A stretch of 64,000 bases of DNA from Microlunatus panaciterrae (GTDB lineage: Bacteria; Actinomycetota; Actinomycetes; Propionibacteriales; Propionibacteriaceae), in contig NZ_JAFBCF010000001.1 of the NCBI RefSeq assembly GCF_016907535.1, positions 248,001-312,000 on the forward strand, in the 5' to 3' direction. Numbering within the stretch: the stretch's first letter is position 1; each line of letters starts with the position of its first letter. A program made the position numbers and the translations under genes. The notes under the pieces were generated by a model that did no database searches, had not been told where the DNA came from, and worked only from the letters and a program-made list of their open reading frames with translations. Positions 1 through 8,065 of this stretch are shown here, one piece after another.

Positions 1-1695
1 CGTGCCGTCCAGGTCGAAGACGGCCAGGGCCTGCGACCCGGCGGTGTCCCTGCTCAGGTCTTTCATCGTGGTGGGACGCGCACCCCGCTTGCGCCGGATG
101 GCGTCCATCCTGCGGACCGGCTCGGTGATCGACGGGCAGTGCACCTCCTCGATGTAGGTGGTCCAGTCGTAGACGGCGGTGTCGAAGGCGAAGATCGGCT
201 GGTCATCCGGGTGCAGCGACCGGGTCAGCCGCAGCGTGTTGTCGTCGACGAAGTGCAGCTCGGACTGGGCATACTCGTTGTACAGGCCCAGGTAGCGGCG
301 CAAGAAGGTCATCCGGACCCGTGCCCGGTCCAGGTCGCGGGCGATCTTGCGAATCCGCTCCGAGCGCGGGGCTCTCGCCAGCACCCGTTCGGCCACCTTG
401 TGGGCGCGCTCGGAGTTCGTCAGCAGCCGCTCGACCGACGTGGCACCGGGGAACTGCCATTGCGGCAGGTGGGCGGCGCCACGCTCGCCGCCGTCGAAGG
501 GGTGGGCGGTGAAGTAGGAGCGGACGTGGTCGTACAGCTCGCGGAAGGTCAGTGGGTTCCGCGCCCCGGAGGCCACGTGGTAGTACTCGGGTCTGCCGAC
601 CTCGGGCACAGTCGCGCAGACGGCGAGGATGGCGTTCACGACGTGGTCGCAGGGCACGATGTCGACCACCGAGTCCGGTGAGGCCGGGAACTCGGGCAGC
701 TCGCCCCGGCCGTACGCCAGGATCAGCGGCTCGGCCATCTTGAACCCCTCGATCCATCCGGGGTACGGGTGCAACCAGGACGACTCGACGATGGCGGGAC
801 GGACGATCGAGACGTGCAGGTTGGCCCCGAGATCGGCGACCACCCTCTCACCCAGTGCCTTGGTGAAGGTGTAGACGTCGGTCCAGCCCAGCGACCGGGC
901 CCGTTCGGTGCCGGCCTCGACCAGCTTCTCCTGCACCCAGTCCTTGCGGCGGCGCTCGGTGTCGGCGGCCGTGGTCAGGAAGCCGGCGGCGCGATGCTCC
1001 CGCTCAGCCTCCTTGCGCAGCCGGGTGAGCTGCTCGGCGGTGCGGGACTCGGCCTCGATCAGCTCGCGCATGGCCAGCCCGGCCCGGGTCTCGGTCTCGT
1101 AGTCGATGCTGTGCTCGTGCGGAGCCTCCGGGATGGCGCCACGGCGCCGTCCGGCCGTGTAGGCGGTGGAGATGTGCACATAGTGCGGCACCTTGGTGAT
1201 ATTGCCAGCCTCGTCGGTGACGGCCTCAATCATCCGCCGCATCAGGGCCCGGGTGCCGATCACATTGGTGGTGAACGCCTGGTCGATCGGCGGGTCGAAG
1301 GACACGTCTCCGGCGCAATGCATCACCACGTCGAGATCGGCGGGCAGCTCGGGGACGTTCGGCAGGTCGCCCTCGATCACCTGGATCCGGGCATCCACCA
1401 GCTGCTCGGCGCCGCCGGCCGCCTCCCGCAGCTGGGTGAAGATCTTCTTCTTGACCAGGCCGATCACGCGCTCCCGGGCGGACGCGGAACCCTTCCGTCG
1501 GACCAGGACCGCGGGCGCGGTCTCCGGGAGCTCGGTCAGGATCTTCCAGAGCACCTGTTCACCGATGAAACCCGTGACACCGGTCATGACGATCTTCTTG
1601 CCGGCGAGCAGCTCGCTCAGCCGGCCGTCGAGAGTCGGCCCGGCAGCGGTGGCGACAGCGGAGCGGCGGAAGGCCGCCGCGGGGACGGCCGTCAT
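1..1695 (-). CDS. Fatty acyl-CoA reductase (SDR) fused to a HAD domain, 3' end outside window
   Basis: The frame runs open from ATG at 1695 to base 1 (565 codons seen). Residues 38-45 read TGVTGFIG, the Rossmann NAD(P)-binding loop of extended SDRs. STAY at about 176-179 and Y275/K279 (YTFTK) supply the catalytic triad pattern, so this is a thioester or fatty acyl-CoA reductase of the NAD_binding_4 type. A FAR-like C-terminal region follows to about residue 540. The last residues seen are LAVFDLDGT, which is motif I of a HAD phosphatase (nucleophile Asp, then DxDGT), so the gene encodes a reductase-HAD fusion whose HAD part lies beyond the window. The ATG overlaps the priA stop as ATGA, so translation is probably coupled to priA. 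The likely role is reducing an acyl-CoA or acyl thioester to aldehyde or alcohol in lipid metabolism. The HAD substrate is unknown. Confidence 0.85.
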
Positions 1696-2459
1696 AGGCC
1701 CCCCAGTCCACGGTCGGCCGGCTCGCTCACCGGGCGGCCCTGCGCTGTCGCCAGGGCCTCCTCGATGGTGAAGTTGCCGACATAGAGCGCCGTGCCGATG
1801 ATCGCACCCTCGACCCCGGCACCCACCAGCTCGGTCAGCGCCGCGATGTCCGCCAGCGTCGAGATCCCGCCGCTGGCGATGACCGGCTTGTCGGTGCGGG
1901 CGCAGACGTTGCGGAGCAGCTCGAAGTTGGGCCCGGCCAGCATGCCGTCCGAGGCGACGTCGGTGACCACGAACCGGGCGCAGCCGGCACGGTCGAGCCG
2001 GTCCAGTGTCTCGTAGAGGTCGCCACCCTCCTCGGTCCAACCGCGGGCGGCCAGCCGACGGCCCCTGACATCGAGGCCGATGGCGATCCGGTCACCGTGG
2101 CTGGCGATGATCTCCTCGCACCACTCCGGACGTTCCAGTGCGGCCGTGCCGATGTTCACCCGGGCACATCCGGTCGCCAGTGCCCGCTCCAGGCTCGCAT
2201 CGTCTCGGATGCCGCCGGACAGCTCCACCTTGAGCGGCATCGCGGCCGTGACCTCGGCGATCACAGCGGCGTTGTCCCCCCGGCCGAAGGCGGCATCGAG
2301 GTCCACCAGATGGATCCATTCCGCGCCGGCGTCGGCCCAGCGTTGCGCGGCGACCCTCGGGTCCCCGAACCTCTTCTCCGAACCGGCCCTGCCCTGAACG
2401 AGTTGGACGGCCTGACCGTCGGCGACGTCCACGGCAGGCAACAGCACCAATGAATCCAC
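1692..2459 (-). CDS. priA: PriA: phosphoribosyl isomerase of histidine (and probably tryptophan) synthesis
   Basis: 255 residues with the HisA-type (beta/alpha)8 fold. D11 (LLPAVDV) and D171 (TDVASDG) occupy the positions of the acid/base pair of Pri[11 protein letters not shown] (about 139-148) is the PriA loop whose Arg and Trp switch between the histidine (ProFAR) and tryptophan (PRA) substrates. Two phosphate sites are visible as LSGGIR (80-85) and IASGGIS. No trpF is seen in the window although trpE, trpC, trpB and trpA are present, which fits the bifunctional role. The first-strand loop has Gln19 where the mycobacterial and streptomycete proteins I recall have Arg; archaeal HisA also has Gln there, so I do not read it as damage. 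The start is GTG at 2459, behind a -10 hexamer with no room for a Shine-Dalgarno. Confidence 0.95.
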
Positions 2460-2685: not shown

Positions 2686-3687
2686 TCACGCGGCGGCGAC
2701 GGAGGACAGGCCATACGTCAGTCGGGCGGTTCGGGTCACGGTCGTCAGGAAACGCTGCGAGTGCGGGCTCGCCTGATGGGTGAACCAGTCGTTGTCGATG
2801 TCGCAGCAGGACACCGAAACCCCGAGCCCACGAAGGACGACAGGCAGGGTGTGGACGACCGTCGACGGAAAGCTGAGGACGGTCCGCCCGATCGGGCTGC
2901 GGCGCACCCACAGCTCCAGCGGTAGGTCGGGCCGGACGATGTCGAGGCCGAGCGCCTCGATCCGGCTCAGCTTGGCCGCGGACTCGCGCCGGTGCGCCAG
3001 GTAGCGGCTGACCCCGTGACGCCCGGCGAGCAGCTCGACCCCGCGCAGGTAGCGGTCCAGCTCGACCACGCCGGTCTCCACCAGCGATGTCCCGACCAGG
3101 TCCGTCGTCTCGAGCAGCACCGGGGCAGGGTACCGCCGTCGCGACCAGCCGAACGAGTTGCGCACCACAGTGACGGCCGAGCTCTCCACCGGCATCGCCG
3201 TGAACAGCTGCACCGACCGCCCCGGCCGGGCCGTCAGCCGTCGACGGGCCAGCGCGGCCAGCGGGCGCGACCGCCCGGCGCGGTGCCAGCGGACCAGGTC
3301 ACCGCCGGACTCCAGCCTCTCGACGAACTCCAACGTCGCGCTGCCGTCGTCGACCACCACCAGCTGCTGGATCCGGCTGAGGCCCAGCACCAGCTGCATC
3401 AGTCCGGAGAACGGGTCCCCCAGCACCAGCTGATCGGTCGCCCTGAGCTGCCCGGACAGCGCCCGGACGCTGGCCAGTCCGGCACTCCGGCTGGCGCGTG
3501 GCTCCTGCCAGTCCAGGCGATGACCGACAGCGCCGGCCAGCTCCGACATCCGGTGCAGCTGTTGTCGGCTCTGCTCCTGCCGAGGCGCCAGTACGGTGAT
3601 GCACAGGTCGTCAGTGCCCTGCGCGTGGGCCCATTCCAGCACGTTCAGCAGCTGGGCCGGGCTCTCGACCAGGGCGGTCGTGGTCAT
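2686..3687 (-). CDS. GT52-like (sialyltransferase-type) glycosyltransferase
   Basis: 333 residues with no signal peptide or membrane segment. The order of landmarks resembles the lipooligosaccharide sialyltransferase group (GT52, GT-B fold): an N-terminal Rossmann-like half, VVDDGSAT (about 118-125), a YLAHRRES patch followed by a Lys, then a PLELW..P.......SFPST segment and a C-terminal DNDWF. In known members the His and Pro-Glu pair handles the CMP-sugar donor. The similarity is by pattern only, so the donor and acceptor are inference. The ATG overlaps the stop of the NeuB-like gene as ATGA, which ties it to nonulosonate synthesis. An alternative is a member of the polysialyltransferase family like the gene at 5770. 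Confidence 0.6.
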   Translation of the reverse strand: MTTTALVESPAQLLNVLEWAHAQGTDDLCITVLAPRQEQSRQQLHRMSELAGAVGHRLDWQEPRASRSAGLASVRALSGQLRATDQLVLGDPFSGLMQLVLGLSRIQQLVVVDDGSATLEFVERLESGGDLVRWHRAGRSRPLAALARRRLTARPGRSVQLFTAMPVESSAVTVVRNSFGWSRRRYPAPVLLETTDLVGTSLVETGVVELDRYLRGVELLAGRHGVSRYLAHRRESAAKLSRIEALGLDIVRPDLPLELWVRRSPIGRTVLSFPSTVVHTLPVVLRGLGVSVSCCDIDNDWFTHQASPHSQRFLTTVTRTARLTYGLSSVAAA

Positions 3688-4634
3688 GACGCGCTGACCA
3701 GCTCCCTGACCCCGTCCTCGGCCTCGACCGTTCCCTCGCCTTGGACCCGGCGGAGCTTCCGCATCGCGGCCAGCTCACCCTCGTACACCCGCTTGACCCC
3801 GTCGCCCAGGGACTCCTCGATGGCCCGGATGTCACGGACCAGCCGCTGCAGACCCTGCGGTTCGACCGATGCGGCCTGGTCGGAGCCCCAGAGGGCCCGG
3901 TCCAGGGTGATGTGCCGTTCGACGAAGGTGGCGCCGAGTGCGACCGCCGCGAGCGTGGTTTGCAGACCGGTCTCGTGACCGGAGTAGCCGATCGGTACGT
4001 TCGGGAACTCGCGCTGCAGGGTGTGGATCATCCGCAGGTTGAGCTCGGTATTGCGCGCCGGGTAGGTGCTGGTTGCATGCAGCAGCACGATGTTGTCGCT
4101 GCCGAGCACCTCCACGGCGTGCCGGATCTGCCGGGGCGTGGACATGCCCGTCGAGAGGATGACGGTACGCCCGGTGGCCCGCAGTCGCCGCAGCAGCTCG
4201 TCGTCGGTGAGGGAGGCCGAGGCGACCTTGTGGGCGGGTACGTCGAACTGCTCCAGGAAGTCGACCGACTCGACGTCCCACGGCGAGGCGAACCAGTCGA
4301 TGCCCCGCTGCCGGCAGTGCTCGTCGATGGCGCGGTAGTCGTCGGCGTCGAACTCGACCCGGTGCCGGTAGTCGATGTAGGTCATCCGACCCCAGGGGGT
4401 GTCCCGCTCCACGTCCCACTGGTCGCGTGGGGTGCAGACCTCCGGGGTGCGCTTCTGGAACTTCACGGCGTTGCAGCCTGCCTCGGCCGCGACGTCGATC
4501 AGGTCGAAGGCGTTCTTCAGCTCACCGTTGTGGTTGATACCGATCTCACCGGTGATGAAGACGGGGTGACCGGGGCCGACCTTGGCCGAGCCCAGGGTGC
4601 GAACGGCGAGTGTGCGGAAGTTTTCTGTAGTCAT
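3684..4634 (-). CDS. NeuB-type nonulosonate (sialic-acid-like) synthase without SAF domain
   Basis: 316 residues. EIGINHNG (30-37), AVKFQ (56-60), ILSTGMST, IGYSGHETG, VERHITLDR and QAASVEP are the successive signatures of the NeuB TIM barrel, which condenses phosphoenolpyruvate with an N-acyl hexosamine to give a nine-carbon sugar acid. Family members usually end in an antifreeze-like SAF domain that closes over the active site of the partner subunit. Here the protein stops shortly after the barrel. No NeuA (CMP activation) or NeuC (epimerase) gene is in the window. I chose ATG 4634 over an upstream frame start at 4757 because the family N-terminus fits and a -10 hexamer sits seven bases before it. 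Which nonulosonate it makes (Neu5Ac, legionaminate, Kdn or other) cannot be told. Confidence 0.8.
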   Translation of the reverse strand: MTTENFRTLAVRTLGSAKVGPGHPVFITGEIGINHNGELKNAFDLIDVAAEAGCNAVKFQKRTPEVCTPRDQWDVERDTPWGRMTYIDYRHRVEFDADDYRAIDEHCRQRGIDWFASPWDVESVDFLEQFDVPAHKVASASLTDDELLRRLRATGRTVILSTGMSTPRQIRHAVEVLGSDNIVLLHATSTYPARNTELNLRMIHTLQREFPNVPIGYSGHETGLQTTLAAVALGATFVERHITLDRALWGSDQAASVEPQGLQRLVRDIRAIEESLGDGVKRVYEGELAAMRKLRRVQGEGTVEAEDGVRELVSAS

Positions 4635-4641
4635 GTGACAG

Positions 4642-4647
4642 ACCGTA
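4642..4647 (-). promoter_or_regulatory. -10 hexamer TACGGT, leaderless start of the NeuB-like gene
   Basis: On the minus strand TACGGT, seven bases, then ATG 4634. There is no purine-rich ribosome site between. It faces the promoter of the GT2 gene across a 179-bp divergent region. Confidence 0.55.
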
Positions 4648-4800
4648 GGAACCGGGCATTTCCTGACGGCTGAGGACACGTGAACACGAAGCGAACAACA
4701 CACCGCCAACAATCGACCATGATCAGCTTGTTGGCCCAGACGTTCATGATCGTTCACCGACGCGACAGCCCGGCGACACCGGCACCGGACACTGACTGCC

Positions 4801-4806
4801 TAACGT
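4801..4806 (+). promoter_or_regulatory. -10 hexamer TAACGT, leaderless start of the GT2 gene
   Basis: TAACGT is followed by seven bases and the GTG start at 4814. The spacing equals that of the divergent NeuB-like gene, so both arms of the cassette look leaderless and could be co-regulated from the shared intergenic region. Confidence 0.55.
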
Positions 4807-4813
4807 CGGCGCG

Positions 4814-5773
4814 GTGATCAAACTTTCGGTGGTCGTGCCCTGCTTCAACGTCGCTGAGTTCCTGCCCGAGACGATCCGCAGCCTGGCCCGCAACACGGAC
4901 CCACGGATCGAGTACCTGTTCGTCGACGACGCCTCACAGGACGGCACGGCGGCACTGCTCGAGGCCGAGCTCGACCACCTCCCGGGTGCACGCCTGATCA
5001 AGAACTCGCTGAACCGGGGTCTGGCCGCCACCCGCAACGTCGGCCTGGACGCCGCGCGGGGTGAGCACCTGGCCTTCCTGGACGGCGACGACTTCGTGGC
5101 GCCGGGCTACTACACCGAGCTGGTCGCGACCATCGAACGGCTGGCGGTCGACTTCGTCCGCACCGATCATGTCCGGGTCCTGGGTCGCCGGCGCACCATC
5201 GACCGGGTCCCCTACGGCCCCCGCTCGCGGCCGCGGGACCCCCGCAGCGGCATCCTTCCCGACGACCGCAACACCTCGGTCGACTATCCGTTCGCGTGGG
5301 CCGGGATCTACCACCGCCGGCTCGCCGACGCCGGGCTGCTGCACTTCACCCCCGGTCTGCGCACCTGCGAGGACCGACCCTGGAACTGGCGTCTGCACCT
5401 GGGTGCGGACTCGTTTGCCGTGGTCGGACTGCTCGGCGTCTTCTACCGCCGCGGCATCACCAGCTCGCTGAGCCAGGTCACCGACACCCGCCAGTTCGAC
5501 TTCGTCCCAGCCTTCGACCAGATCCTCGCCGACGTGGCCGCCGACCCTGAGTGCGAGCTGCTGTTGCCGAAGGCGCTGCGGTCGTACGCCGCCATCCTGT
5601 GCCACCACCTGCGGCGGCTGGACAGCTATGCCCCGCCGCTGGATGCCGCCCTGCGCACCCTCTGCGAGCAGGCGGCCCGCCGGCTACCCAGGGAGGAGCT
5701 GATCAAGACGGCACAGACGCTCGACCCGGACCGCCGCCGGCAGTTGAGCGAGCTGATCGGCGCAGCCGCATGA
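4814..5773 (+). CDS. Family 2 glycosyltransferase (GT-A)
   Basis: 319 residues starting at GTG. LSVVVPCFN at the N-terminus, VDDAS (38-42) and LDGDD (89-93) are the nucleotide-sugar and metal (DxD) motifs of inverting GT2 enzymes. TCEDRPWNW near residue 185 carries the ED catalytic-base motif. The C-terminal 100 residues are helical and show no membrane span. Its TGA overlaps the next ATG, so it forms a two-gene operon with the polysialyltransferase-like gene. It probably adds a hexose or HexNAc to the polymer or linker on which the nonulosonate is placed. The acceptor is unknown. Confidence 0.85.
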   Translation: MIKLSVVVPCFNVAEFLPETIRSLARNTDPRIEYLFVDDASQDGTAALLEAELDHLPGARLIKNSLNRGLAATRNVGLDAARGEHLAFLDGDDFVAPGYYTELVATIERLAVDFVRTDHVRVLGRRRTIDRVPYGPRSRPRDPRSGILPDDRNTSVDYPFAWAGIYHRRLADAGLLHFTPGLRTCEDRPWNWRLHLGADSFAVVGLLGVFYRRGITSSLSQVTDTRQFDFVPAFDQILADVAADPECELLLPKALRSYAAILCHHLRRLDSYAPPLDAALRTLCEQAARRLPREELIKTAQTLDPDRRRQLSELIGAAA

Positions 5774-7215
5774 GCGGGTCATCGCCAGCACCGTCGTCGT
5801 CGACGGTCCAGGTCTTCGTCGTCTCCACCTTCTACGGCCTGGTCACCCTCACCGCAGCACTTGACGGCGGCGCCTTCAACGCCGCCGACGAGCGTGTCCT
5901 GGTGGTCAGCAACAATGCCCAGACACCCGAGACCGCTGCCCGGCTCCAGGAGATGCACGGCTTCGCCGCACTGGTGCAGCGGTTCGACCGGGTGCTGGAC
6001 TACAACGACGCCATCGCCCCTCAGCACCCGTCGCTGTGGTCGCCCAGAGTGGACGAGCTGCCGATCTGGGAACGCTACCTCCGGCTGCGGTGGCACCTCG
6101 GTCGGGCCGACGTGCACCTGGTGCTGGAGAGCATCCAGGTCTGTCCGGCACTCGCGCTCTGCCGGATCTTCCCGGACGCGCGGATCGACGTGTACGCCGA
6201 TGGCCTGATGAGCTACGGGCCGACCCGGGTTCGGCTGGCTCCGCTGGTCGGCGGCCGGGTCGAGCGCCTGCTCTATCTCGATCTGGTGCCCGGCCTGAGG
6301 CCGTTGCTGCTGAGCGAGTGGGACGTGCCGGCCGAGGCGGTGTCTGACCGGGCCTTCCGCGCGGTACTCCGGCGGGTGACCGGGCAGGTGACGCTGCCCT
6401 GCCCGGCCGACCAGCCGGTCGTGATCATCATCGGGCAGTACCTCTCGGCGCTGGGCGTGCTGAGCGTCGACGAGGAGGCGGAGCTGCATCGGCAGATGCT
6501 GGTCGGCATCGCCCAGCTCGGACATCGCATCGTCATCTTCAAACCACACCCCAACGCTGGCCGAGCGCTGGCCGATCCGATGCTGGCCGAGGCGGAACGG
6601 CTGGGGGTGCAGGTGCTCGTCTGCTCTGCTCCGGTGCTGGCCGAGAGCCTGTTCGAGCAGCTGCGGGTGGAGCTGGTGGTCGGGTGCTTCTCCACCGCAC
6701 TGCTCACCGCGGCCAGATACTTCGACCTCCCGGCCGCCCGCAGCGGGACCGAGCTACTGCTCGAACGGTTGCAGCCGTACGAGAACAGCAACCGGATACC
6801 GGTCACCCTGGTGGATGCGCTGCTGCCCGATGTCGCCGACCTGAGCCGACCGCCCGAGCCGCGGCGACCGGAGCAGCACAGGGACACCACGGGAGCCGCC
6901 GTCTCGGCCCAGGCTCTCGTCAACACGGTCGGCTATGCGATGCGACCGAGCCTCTACCCGAAGCTGCGTGACGAGGCGGTGCGCTACCTGGCCGCCCACT
7001 ACCCTGACCAGGCGCGCTACTTCAAACGCCGCCGGCTCACCGCCCTGCAGCTGCCGGGTGCGCTGCCACCTCGCCTGCAACAGACCCGTCGGATCGGGCG
7101 CCGGCTGCGGTCTCGACTCAGAAGGACGTACCGGGGTGTACTGCGCGCGACCGGCGCAGGTCCAGCGGCGCGTACAGGTGCGGGAACTCGCCCTCTCCGC
7201 CGAGGTCTTCCATGA
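5770..7215 (+). CDS. Polysialyltransferase-family (POLYST) glycosyltransferase
   Basis: 481 residues from the ATG that overlaps the GT2 stop. YADGLMSYG (142-150), IGQYLSALGVLS (221-232) and FKPHPN (257-262) are the landmarks I associate with the alpha-2,8-polysialyltransferase family. VGCFSTALLTAA near 305 resembles the CMP-phosphate pocket of GT-B sialyltransferases. These enzymes polymerise or cap nonulosonic acids on surface glycans at the cytoplasmic face. From about residue 435 the chain becomes Arg-rich, and residues 450-481 are encoded antisense to the end of the HAD-DUF952 gene. The tail therefore looks like read-through into host sequence and not part of the native fold. The family call is by motif only. 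Confidence 0.72.
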   Translation: MSGSSPAPSSSTVQVFVVSTFYGLVTLTAALDGGAFNAADERVLVVSNNAQTPETAARLQEMHGFAALVQRFDRVLDYNDAIAPQHPSLWSPRVDELPIWERYLRLRWHLGRADVHLVLESIQVCPALALCRIFPDARIDVYADGLMSYGPTRVRLAPLVGGRVERLLYLDLVPGLRPLLLSEWDVPAEAVSDRAFRAVLRRVTGQVTLPCPADQPVVIIIGQYLSALGVLSVDEEAELHRQMLVGIAQLGHRIVIFKPHPNAGRALADPMLAEAERLGVQVLVCSAPVLAESLFEQLRVELVVGCFSTALLTAARYFDLPAARSGTELLLERLQPYENSNRIPVTLVDALLPDVADLSRPPEPRRPEQHRDTTGAAVSAQALVNTVGYAMRPSLYPKLRDEAVRYLAAHYPDQARYFKRRRLTALQLPGALPPRLQQTRRIGRRLRSRLRRTYRGVLRATGAGPAARTGAGTRPLRRGLP

Positions 7216-8065
7216 TCACGACTCCGTCGAGCTCCTGCGGGTCGAACTCACCGACGACCAGGTCGGCGCGATTGAGGTCGGCATAGGTCGACGCCAGCAC
7301 GCCAGCGACCTGATCTGGCAGCGCGCAGTGCACGAAGCCCTGCCGCTGATAGCTCAGCCCGCGGCTCGACCAGGGGTAGTCGCCGCTGTCCAGTCCCTGC
7401 TGCCACAGCTCCCGTTCGGCCACGTGGAACACCGGGCCGGCGACGGGTTGGCGGGTCTGCAGCAGTCCAAGATCAACCAGCGCGGACCTGGTCGACTCGG
7501 CGTCGACGAAGTTGATCACGGTCAGCCCCACTGCTGCGGCCGCTCGACAGTTCTTCGGCGAGTCGTCGATGAAGACCGCCGCTGCGGGATCGACGCCGTA
7601 CCGCTCGCACAGCAGGGTGAAGATCGCCGGGTCCGGCTTGGCCAGCTGCTCCTCGCCGGACACCACGATCCCCTCGAAGCGGTCCAGGATGGAGAAGCTG
7701 CGACGGGCAACGGGGAAGAGCTCCGCCGACCAGTTGGTCAGCGCGATCAGCCGAACGCCGCGGCGCTGCAGCTCGGCGACCAGCGCGGCGGTGCCGGGCA
7801 CCAGCCCGGTGAGGGTACGGGCGAAGTGGCGTCGGTAGGCCAGGATCGCCTCGGCCCGGTCGGGGAAGCGGCTGATCAGCTCGGTTTCGCCGACGGACCA
7901 CTCCTGCCCGGCGTCGTGGGCGAGGTTCCACTCGGCGAAGGAGATCTGCTCCATGAACTCGCCGATCTCCTCGGCCGGCAGCACCTCGGCGAACGCCAGC
8001 CGTGGGTCCCACTCGAGCAGCACCCGGCCGAGGTCGAAGATCACCGTGTCCGCGGAGGCCGTCAC
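7118..8065 (-). CDS. HAD phosphatase fused to a DUF952 domain
   Basis: 315 residues from GTG 8065, which overlaps the hisH stop as GTGA. Residues 1-200 are a HAD-IA (YihX/epoxide-hydrolase-like) phosphatase: IFDLGRVLL at the start, TNWS (motif II), KPDPAIF (motif III Lys) and FIDDSPKN (motif IV). The second Asp of the usual DxD is Gly (DLG), as in several YihX-like HADs. Residues about 215-310 match DUF952: an FHVAE start, [11 protein letters not shown] in the middle and FPHLYAPL near the end. DUF952 has no settled function that I know. Being coupled to hisH and hisB, the HAD could act on a sugar phosphate or even on histidinol phosphate, but that is speculative. The 3' end lies under the convergent polysialyltransferase-like gene for 98 bases. 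Confidence 0.82.

Follow-up and report, generated by a model that had tools for sequence, protein, structure and literature searches.

As far as excerpts of the cited papers go, the genes SCO4873-4882 of Streptomyces are teichulosonic-acid genes under PhoP (PMC13011467, which credits Ostash 2014), and 2-keto-3-deoxy-D-glycero-D-galacto-nononic acid (Kdn) is named as the teichulosonic-acid sugar (PMC11481543; PMC7831098). SCO4881 is given as NeuB (PMC2367054), and SCO4873-81, including neuAB, are described as PhoP-dependent under phosphate starvation and as serving to make a putative teichuronic acid free of phosphorus (PMC2267785). The Planobispora counterparts of SCO4877, SCO4879 and SCO4882 (hypothetical proteins), of SCO4878 (GT2) and of SCO4880 (labelled sialic acid synthase) are Pho-activated (PMC8269224), and teichulosonic acids are also recorded in Promicromonospora and Kribbella (PMC6801904, PMC6113628). 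For Prymnesium parvum and Bacteroides thetaiotaomicron, a route is described from mannose-6-phosphate (Man-6-P) through Kdn-9-phosphate (Kdn-9-P) and Kdn to the cytidine monophosphate (CMP) derivative CMP-Kdn, without NeuC (PMC6200933). Here we analyse a 64,000-nucleotide stretch of Microlunatus panaciterrae (the window, C1:248001-312000; the genome is a single contig of 4.07 Mb), in which genes for a NeuB-type synthase, a putative transferase (ORF1), a GT2 glycosyltransferase and a polysialyltransferase-like protein (PolyST) lie within the histidine locus.

We consider it quite likely that these four genes are half of a Kdn-type teichulosonic-acid wall-polymer cluster orthologous to SCO4877-4882, the other half of which is located approximately 70 kb away. 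With such a gene set, soil actinobacteria appear to cover their walls in a polymer resembling sialic acid. The find is a rearranged, split member of a known cluster type, not a new minimal pathway. The genes and their shared spacer are as follows.

2686-3687, minus strand: ORF1, GT-B protein with a predicted GT38/GT52-like fold, putative CMP-nonulosonate transferase (AlphaFold2 and Foldseek)
3684-4634, minus strand: NeuB, nonulosonate synthase of a SAF-less subfamily (PF03102)
4635-4813, no strand: divergent intergenic spacer; its NeuB strand carries, at about 4680-4696, an 11-bp direct repeat resembling a PHO box (sequence)
4814-5773, plus strand: GT2 glycosyltransferase, matched to SCO4878 through label and gene order (PF00535)
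5770-7215, plus strand: PolyST, alpha-2,8-polysialyltransferase-like, counterpart of SCO4877 by gene order (PF07388)

A probable split teichulosonic-acid cluster

The open reading frame (ORF) list, together with Pfam and NCBIfam, confirms an earlier note on this DNA in placing the four ORFs as two divergent pairs between hisH/HAD and priA. Its family assignments are likewise borne out by Pfam for NeuB (PF03102, E 2.7e-82, 276.3 bits, cut-off 22.1), GT2 (PF00535, E 4e-30) and PolyST (PF07388 A-2_8-polyST, E 3.2e-25, 89.8 bits, cut-off 23.3). Across the 4.07 Mb genome, NeuB and PF07388 have one match each. The likelier start of NeuB is the ATG at 4634, and a longer ORF with a GTG start reaches 4757. 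The same note was correct that NeuA and NeuC are absent from the four-gene stretch; its description of the four genes as a minimal set fails, because a genome search for a CMP-nonulosonate synthetase gave a NeuA-HAD fusion, encoded with a DUF6716 protein approximately 70 kb off.

The genome-wide search with CTP_transf_3 matched two places. The NeuA-HAD fusion at C1:322481-323776 (432 residues) lies approximately 70 kb from NeuB and 10.5 kb past the end of the window, and its presence rules out a minimal pathway without NeuA. Its N-terminal part is a CMP-sugar synthetase (PseF, E 4e-32, 111.5 bits, below the cut-off of 205.7) with 9t4z ('PpNeuA', E 6.9e-35) as the nearest solved structure, and its C-terminal part matches KdsC (E 1e-27) and KDN-9-PPhBT (E 6e-23), both below the curated cut-offs. 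The nearest solved structure to the latter part is 3mmz ('putative HAD family hydrolase', E 9.4e-47); 3e81, which we take to be a Kdn-9-P phosphatase, matches at E 6.6e-19. The fusion gene is flanked by a convergent gene for DUF6716 (E 1e-124) and, on the other side, by a methylmalonyl-CoA mutase gene. The second CTP_transf_3 match, at C1:139456, was rejected as a NeuA: here an IspD-type cytidylyltransferase is joined to an SDR. The region around it, L006:128-10794 (C1:130127-140793), also encodes a GT2-like protein of 1165 residues and an acyltransferase-like protein, both assigned by reading, and is perhaps a separate teichoic-acid-type locus.

The two halves occur in the same genomes. When 57 genomes were searched with NeuA-HAD at a threshold of E 1e-30, it was found in 18, which are exactly the 18 that carry a NeuB of at least 58% identity: 11 of 20 in the genus (own genome included), 5 of 13 other family members searched and 2 of 24 in the order. 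In nine others of the 57 the NeuBs are all distant (35-37%), and NeuA-HAD is absent. Since the genomes are related, the 57 are not independent trials, and some are incomplete. Among nine NeuA-HAD loci fetched from congeners (G008 apart), the mutase gene is nearby in six and a MarR/MeaB/thiolase-like set ('thiolase-like' by reading) in seven; g6 has both near NeuA-HAD.

Comparison with Streptomycetaceae shows the contiguous form. When species genomes were scanned with the NeuB alignment, at least 588 stretches matched; 576 of these were confirmed, and the best 80 of the 576 were analysed. All 80 are from Streptomycetaceae (79 labelled Streptomyces and one Actinacidiphila), with NeuB at 80-86% identity; although some lie on short contigs, ORF1 is present in 80, NeuA-HAD in 78, DUF6716 in 73, GT2 in 70 and PolyST in 68. 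All six genes are found in 60 of the 63 loci longer than 18 kb, and DUF6716-NeuA-NeuB-ORF1 in 63 of 63. As in SCO4877-4882, to which SCO numbers are given by gene order and published labels and not by alignment to S. coelicolor (our NeuB was not aligned to SCO4881), the M. panaciterrae genome encodes the six protein types, with PolyST-GT2 and NeuB-ORF1 as divergent pairs, GT2 adjoining PolyST in the Streptomyces clusters. In contrast to SCO4877-4882, no DUF6716 or NeuA-HAD gene separates the pairs, which are themselves located between hisH-HAD and priA. The six genes thus occupy two loci and make up a split form; most of the Streptomycetaceae loci seen keep them contiguous, which may not be needed for function.

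Candidate transferases

ORF1 matches nothing in Pfam at E 1 or below, nor anything in NCBIfam or PHROGs. The GT52 profile PF07922 does not match the window ORF1, and reaches E 0.11 in one of the 19 members of the alignment used for modelling (the window ORF1 and 18 Streptomycetaceae proteins). The AlphaFold2 model, with a predicted local distance difference test score (pLDDT) of 90.5, was compared by Foldseek with the PDB, where ranks 1-4 are the polysialyltransferase 5wcn and 5wc6 and the Neisseria sialyltransferase (NST) 2yk7 and 2yk4 (E 3.2e-9 to 2.5e-7, 9-11% identity, query-normalised template modelling (TM) score 0.42-0.57). DDG and SFPSTVVHTLP are invariant across the 19 members, and DDG is a motif associated with sialyltransferases. 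ORF1 is therefore like the GT38/GT52 sialyltransferases in that its predicted fold ranks them first and it has DDG, and unlike them in its low identity and lack of a significant profile match. The GT52-like label of the earlier note is accordingly borne out by predicted structure only, and we regard ORF1, which corresponds to the gene that follows neuB in Streptomyces, as a putative GT38/GT52-like CMP-nonulosonate transferase.

The model of PolyST, made from an alignment with 24 Streptomycetaceae proteins, is a GT-B fold with a pLDDT of 83.9. Its Foldseek list opens with an epimerase, after which come plant glycosyltransferases and other proteins (query-normalised TM 0.31-0.43), with polysialyltransferase 5wc6 at rank 15 and GT80-type sialyltransferases at ranks 18, 30, 38 and 48. 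Because an epimerase and plant enzymes lead this list, the sequence family is the stronger evidence for PolyST than the fold; the polysialyltransferase label holds by the PF07388 profile, and the fold comparison adds less to it. Searching the PDB with sequence profiles of ORF1 and PolyST gave nothing useful.

It could be argued that ORF1 and PolyST are GT-B enzymes that use uridine diphosphate (UDP)-sugars and do not transfer nonulosonates, since UDP-GlcNAc 2-epimerases appear in the ORF1 list from rank 5 and, with UDP-dependent GT-B enzymes, follow the sialyltransferases there and lead the PolyST list. We find this unlikely, given that sialyltransferases take the first four places for ORF1, that PolyST has a clear PF07388 match, and that 5wc6 and the GT80-type enzymes are within its Foldseek list.

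The synthase and the proposed sugar route

Thirty-one loci around NeuB matches were fetched from relatives, 27 with orthologs of at least 58% identity and four with distant homologs. The window NeuB is 58-87% identical to the orthologs of 17 relatives in one alignment. All 107 orthologs (27 from relatives and 80 from Streptomycetaceae) share K-[VI]-A-S-A-[SC], the window NeuB having Ser at the last position, whereas D or E stands there in each of the four distant homologs. A profile alignment places this position opposite Glu134 of meningococcal NeuB, in the numbering and role that we assume for that residue. Pfam finds no SAF domain in the window NeuB, and the segment from GYSGH to the end spans 81-111 residues in 107 of 107 orthologs versus 136 in two SAF-bearing homologs. 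As a control, Pfam detects SAF in both distant homologs scanned; the other two have a longer, different C-terminus.

Without SAF there may be no recognition of an N-acetyl group, which would in turn suggest Man-6-P as the substrate, and NeuB is probably a Kdn or Kdn-9-P synthase. More tentatively, and with rather less than even expectation, we suggest that the subfamily, with its fused NeuA-phosphatase partner, might be a mechanistically separate Kdn synthase, and that ORF1, perhaps with DUF6716, might found a new glycosyltransferase family that builds Kdn polymers on the walls of actinobacteria.

In the proposed route, NeuB would form Kdn-9-P by condensing phosphoenolpyruvate with Man-6-P, the HAD part of the NeuA-HAD fusion would remove the phosphate, and the NeuA domain would convert Kdn to CMP-Kdn. 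ORF1, DUF6716 and/or PolyST could then transfer Kdn, GT2 could add a neutral hexose, and the finished polymer would be attached to the cell wall. Such a route from Man-6-P makes NeuC unnecessary and explains the fused phosphatase. It resembles the Kdn pathway of P. parvum and B. thetaiotaomicron in being Man-6-P-based and NeuC-free and in the match, below cut-off, of the HAD part to KDN-9-PPhBT, and differs from it in that the phosphatase is fused to NeuA. The nonulosonate polymer named as the product in the earlier note is supported as likely.

An epimerase does exist in the rest of the genome, where two Epimerase_2 genes were found, but these are of the wecB type and no hydrolysing NeuC was identified among them: both proteins score above the cut-off for wecB, NeuC reaches 68.8 bits in one (cut-off 235.9) and is unlisted in the other, and a NeuC role was rejected for either. 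PseG (TIGR03590) has no match in the genome, and PseC matches five places, all below cut-off. Another nonulosonate, such as N-acetylneuraminic acid (Neu5Ac), legionaminic acid or pseudaminic acid, might still be made by wecB-type epimerases or unrecognised enzymes; the two Epimerase_2 genes and the five PseC places would fit, as would the best scores of NeuB with NeuB_NnaB and of NeuA with PseF, both below cut-off. We judge this improbable, a little more so than the use of UDP-sugars, considering the wecB identity of both epimerases (one of them beside FnlB/CapF-like genes, by reading), the lack of a PseG match, the fused phosphatase and the orthology to the published Kdn cluster.

Gene order at the hisH-priA junction

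The cluster is bordered by two further genes.

1692-2459, minus strand: PriA (HisA/TrpF), border of the insertion (TIGR01919, 350.8 bits, cut-off 306)
7118-8065, minus strand: HAD-DUF952 protein, on the hisH side of the insertion (PF00702, PF06108)

Beyond HAD-DUF952 are hisH (GATase, Pfam) and then hisB, hisC and hisD, these three assigned by reading. HAD-DUF952 is probably outside the pathway; it is also near priA in congeners that lack NeuB (G007, G011, G012). On its other side, priA adjoins a gene for a protein with a Male_sterility NAD-binding domain (L007:9342-11696), which is beside priA in many, not all, of the relatives fetched.

Among the 27 ortholog-bearing loci, NeuB-ORF1 is beside or near priA in 16, from 8 of 10 congeners and 8 others (genera g3, g6, g10, g15, g16); some of these have intervening genes (up to approximately 3.9 kb, in G006), and in some the contig shows the priA side only. 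In the other 11, as far as fetched, the pair is elsewhere (G008, G013, three g9, two g18, g8 and three f3), and NeuA-HAD directly precedes NeuB in the g18, g8 and all three f3 genomes and in two of three g9 genomes. The congener G008 keeps PolyST-GT2 and NeuB-ORF1-NeuA·HAD-DUF6716 together, with a hisH-priA gap of approximately 100 bp. G013 has NeuB-ORF1 and GT2-PolyST-DUF6716/NeuA-HAD at the ends of two contigs, and its NeuB is not between HAD-DUF952 and priA. A second, divergent DUF6716 adjoins the his-locus cluster in two congeners (L048:11965-14075, L047:3075-5182), accompanied in L048 by a Methyltransf_24 protein and in L047 by a neighbour assigned by reading; divergent DUF6716 and methyltransferase are possibly a polymer methylation module.

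The junction was compared in 20 priA loci, comprising 18 further ones, G008 and G013. It is closed (below 150 bp) in five (G008, G020, G022, G023, G027) and has a gap of 0.17-1.5 kb in seven (G001, G015, G025, G030, G088, G106, G109). A protein of 820-862 residues fills it in three (G003, G014 and G017; L222:5284-7872, L226:5620-8082, L227:7776-10238), and the one copy scanned, from G003 (L222), has no Pfam match. HAD-DUF952 and other genes are near priA in G007, G011 and G012, the fetched stretches of the latter two lacking hisH; G013 has HAD-DUF952 alone, and the fetched stretch of G087 is without hisH. Gene order is therefore not the same across relatives, as the earlier note's idea of an insertion had implied. 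The his locus is interrupted relative to the five relatives with a closed junction, but the placement occurs in 16 of the 27 ortholog-bearing relatives fetched and is not private to this genome. The varied contents and the common placement of NeuB point to a variable site and to an old, shared position with no recent event here. In the genus and several related genera NeuB-ORF1, often with GT2-PolyST, lies at hisH-priA, which we take for the result of an early departure from a contiguous cluster, a direction that we infer. The five closed junctions might have suggested that the genes entered this genome alone and recently, with no functioning pathway; this is highly improbable and largely refuted by the same placement in several genera, the presence of NeuA-HAD in the same genomes as NeuB, the intact ORFs and the finding of no tRNA in the window.

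A recent transfer of NeuB from Streptomyces was considered and is not supported by phylogeny. In the NeuB tree (44 rows) the Streptomycetaceae rows are nested among the relatives in a weakly supported fork, but a single clade for the 24 family rows tested was not rejected (p-AU 0.486, approximately unbiased test). The NeuA tree (39 rows) separates, at 100/100, the rows of g1, g3, g6, g10, g8 and f3 from those of g9, g18 and Streptomycetaceae, which leaves more than one history possible for the halves in g9 and g18.

Possible regulation by phosphate

The idea of a PHO box was formed post hoc, after the literature, and the following is therefore a lead only. The direct repeat at 4680-4696 on the NeuB strand is a match with two mismatches, and the pattern is not enriched over the window (21 matches versus a shuffle mean of 17). 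With length-matched p values for the 250-base stretches upstream of NeuB, the repeat gives p 0.0275 in its own genome, which is one of seven among ten in the genus with p <0.04; the other three are G004 and G006 (both approximately 0.12) and G019 (0.52). None of eight genomes from other genera is below 0.04 (lowest 0.0675). Among Streptomycetaceae spacers, 14 of 68 score at least 11 of 14, versus 41 of 800 random stretches. The G008 cluster (L049:254-4309) directly adjoins a PstS-like gene (PF12849), followed by PstC/A/B by reading, an adjacency that fits the phosphate link known in Streptomyces. Phosphate may regulate the cluster.

Weight of the assignment and its meaning

Several observations weigh against a Kdn-type teichulosonic-acid cluster. 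The best profile for NeuB, NeuB_NnaB, gives 255.6 bits, below its cut-off of 399.65, and PseI is also below cut-off, as are KdsC and KDN-9-PPhBT for the HAD part and PseF for the NeuA part; the Ser or Cys at the Glu134 position lacks an explanation. SCO4880 is taken as NeuA-HAD by gene order, and its published label, sialic acid synthase, conflicts with SCO4881 being NeuB. Finally, GT2 and PolyST are beside NeuB in five of the eight his-locus-type congeners and were not found there in the other three (G006, G010, G019), so the polymer may differ between species.

A literature search aimed at this bacterial family found nothing relevant. The earlier note's wider remark, that actinobacterial polymers of this kind have seldom been described, does not stand in view of the teichulosonic acids of Streptomyces, Promicromonospora and Kribbella. 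What the locus would add is the occurrence of a Streptomyces wall-polymer system in a further genus and family of actinobacteria, and an example of how the cluster can split while its halves stay in the same genomes. It also puts forward ORF1, for which sequence searches find no match, as a candidate Kdn transferase, and points to a synthase subfamily in which the lack of SAF could explain the use of Man-6-P over N-acetylmannosamine (ManNAc).

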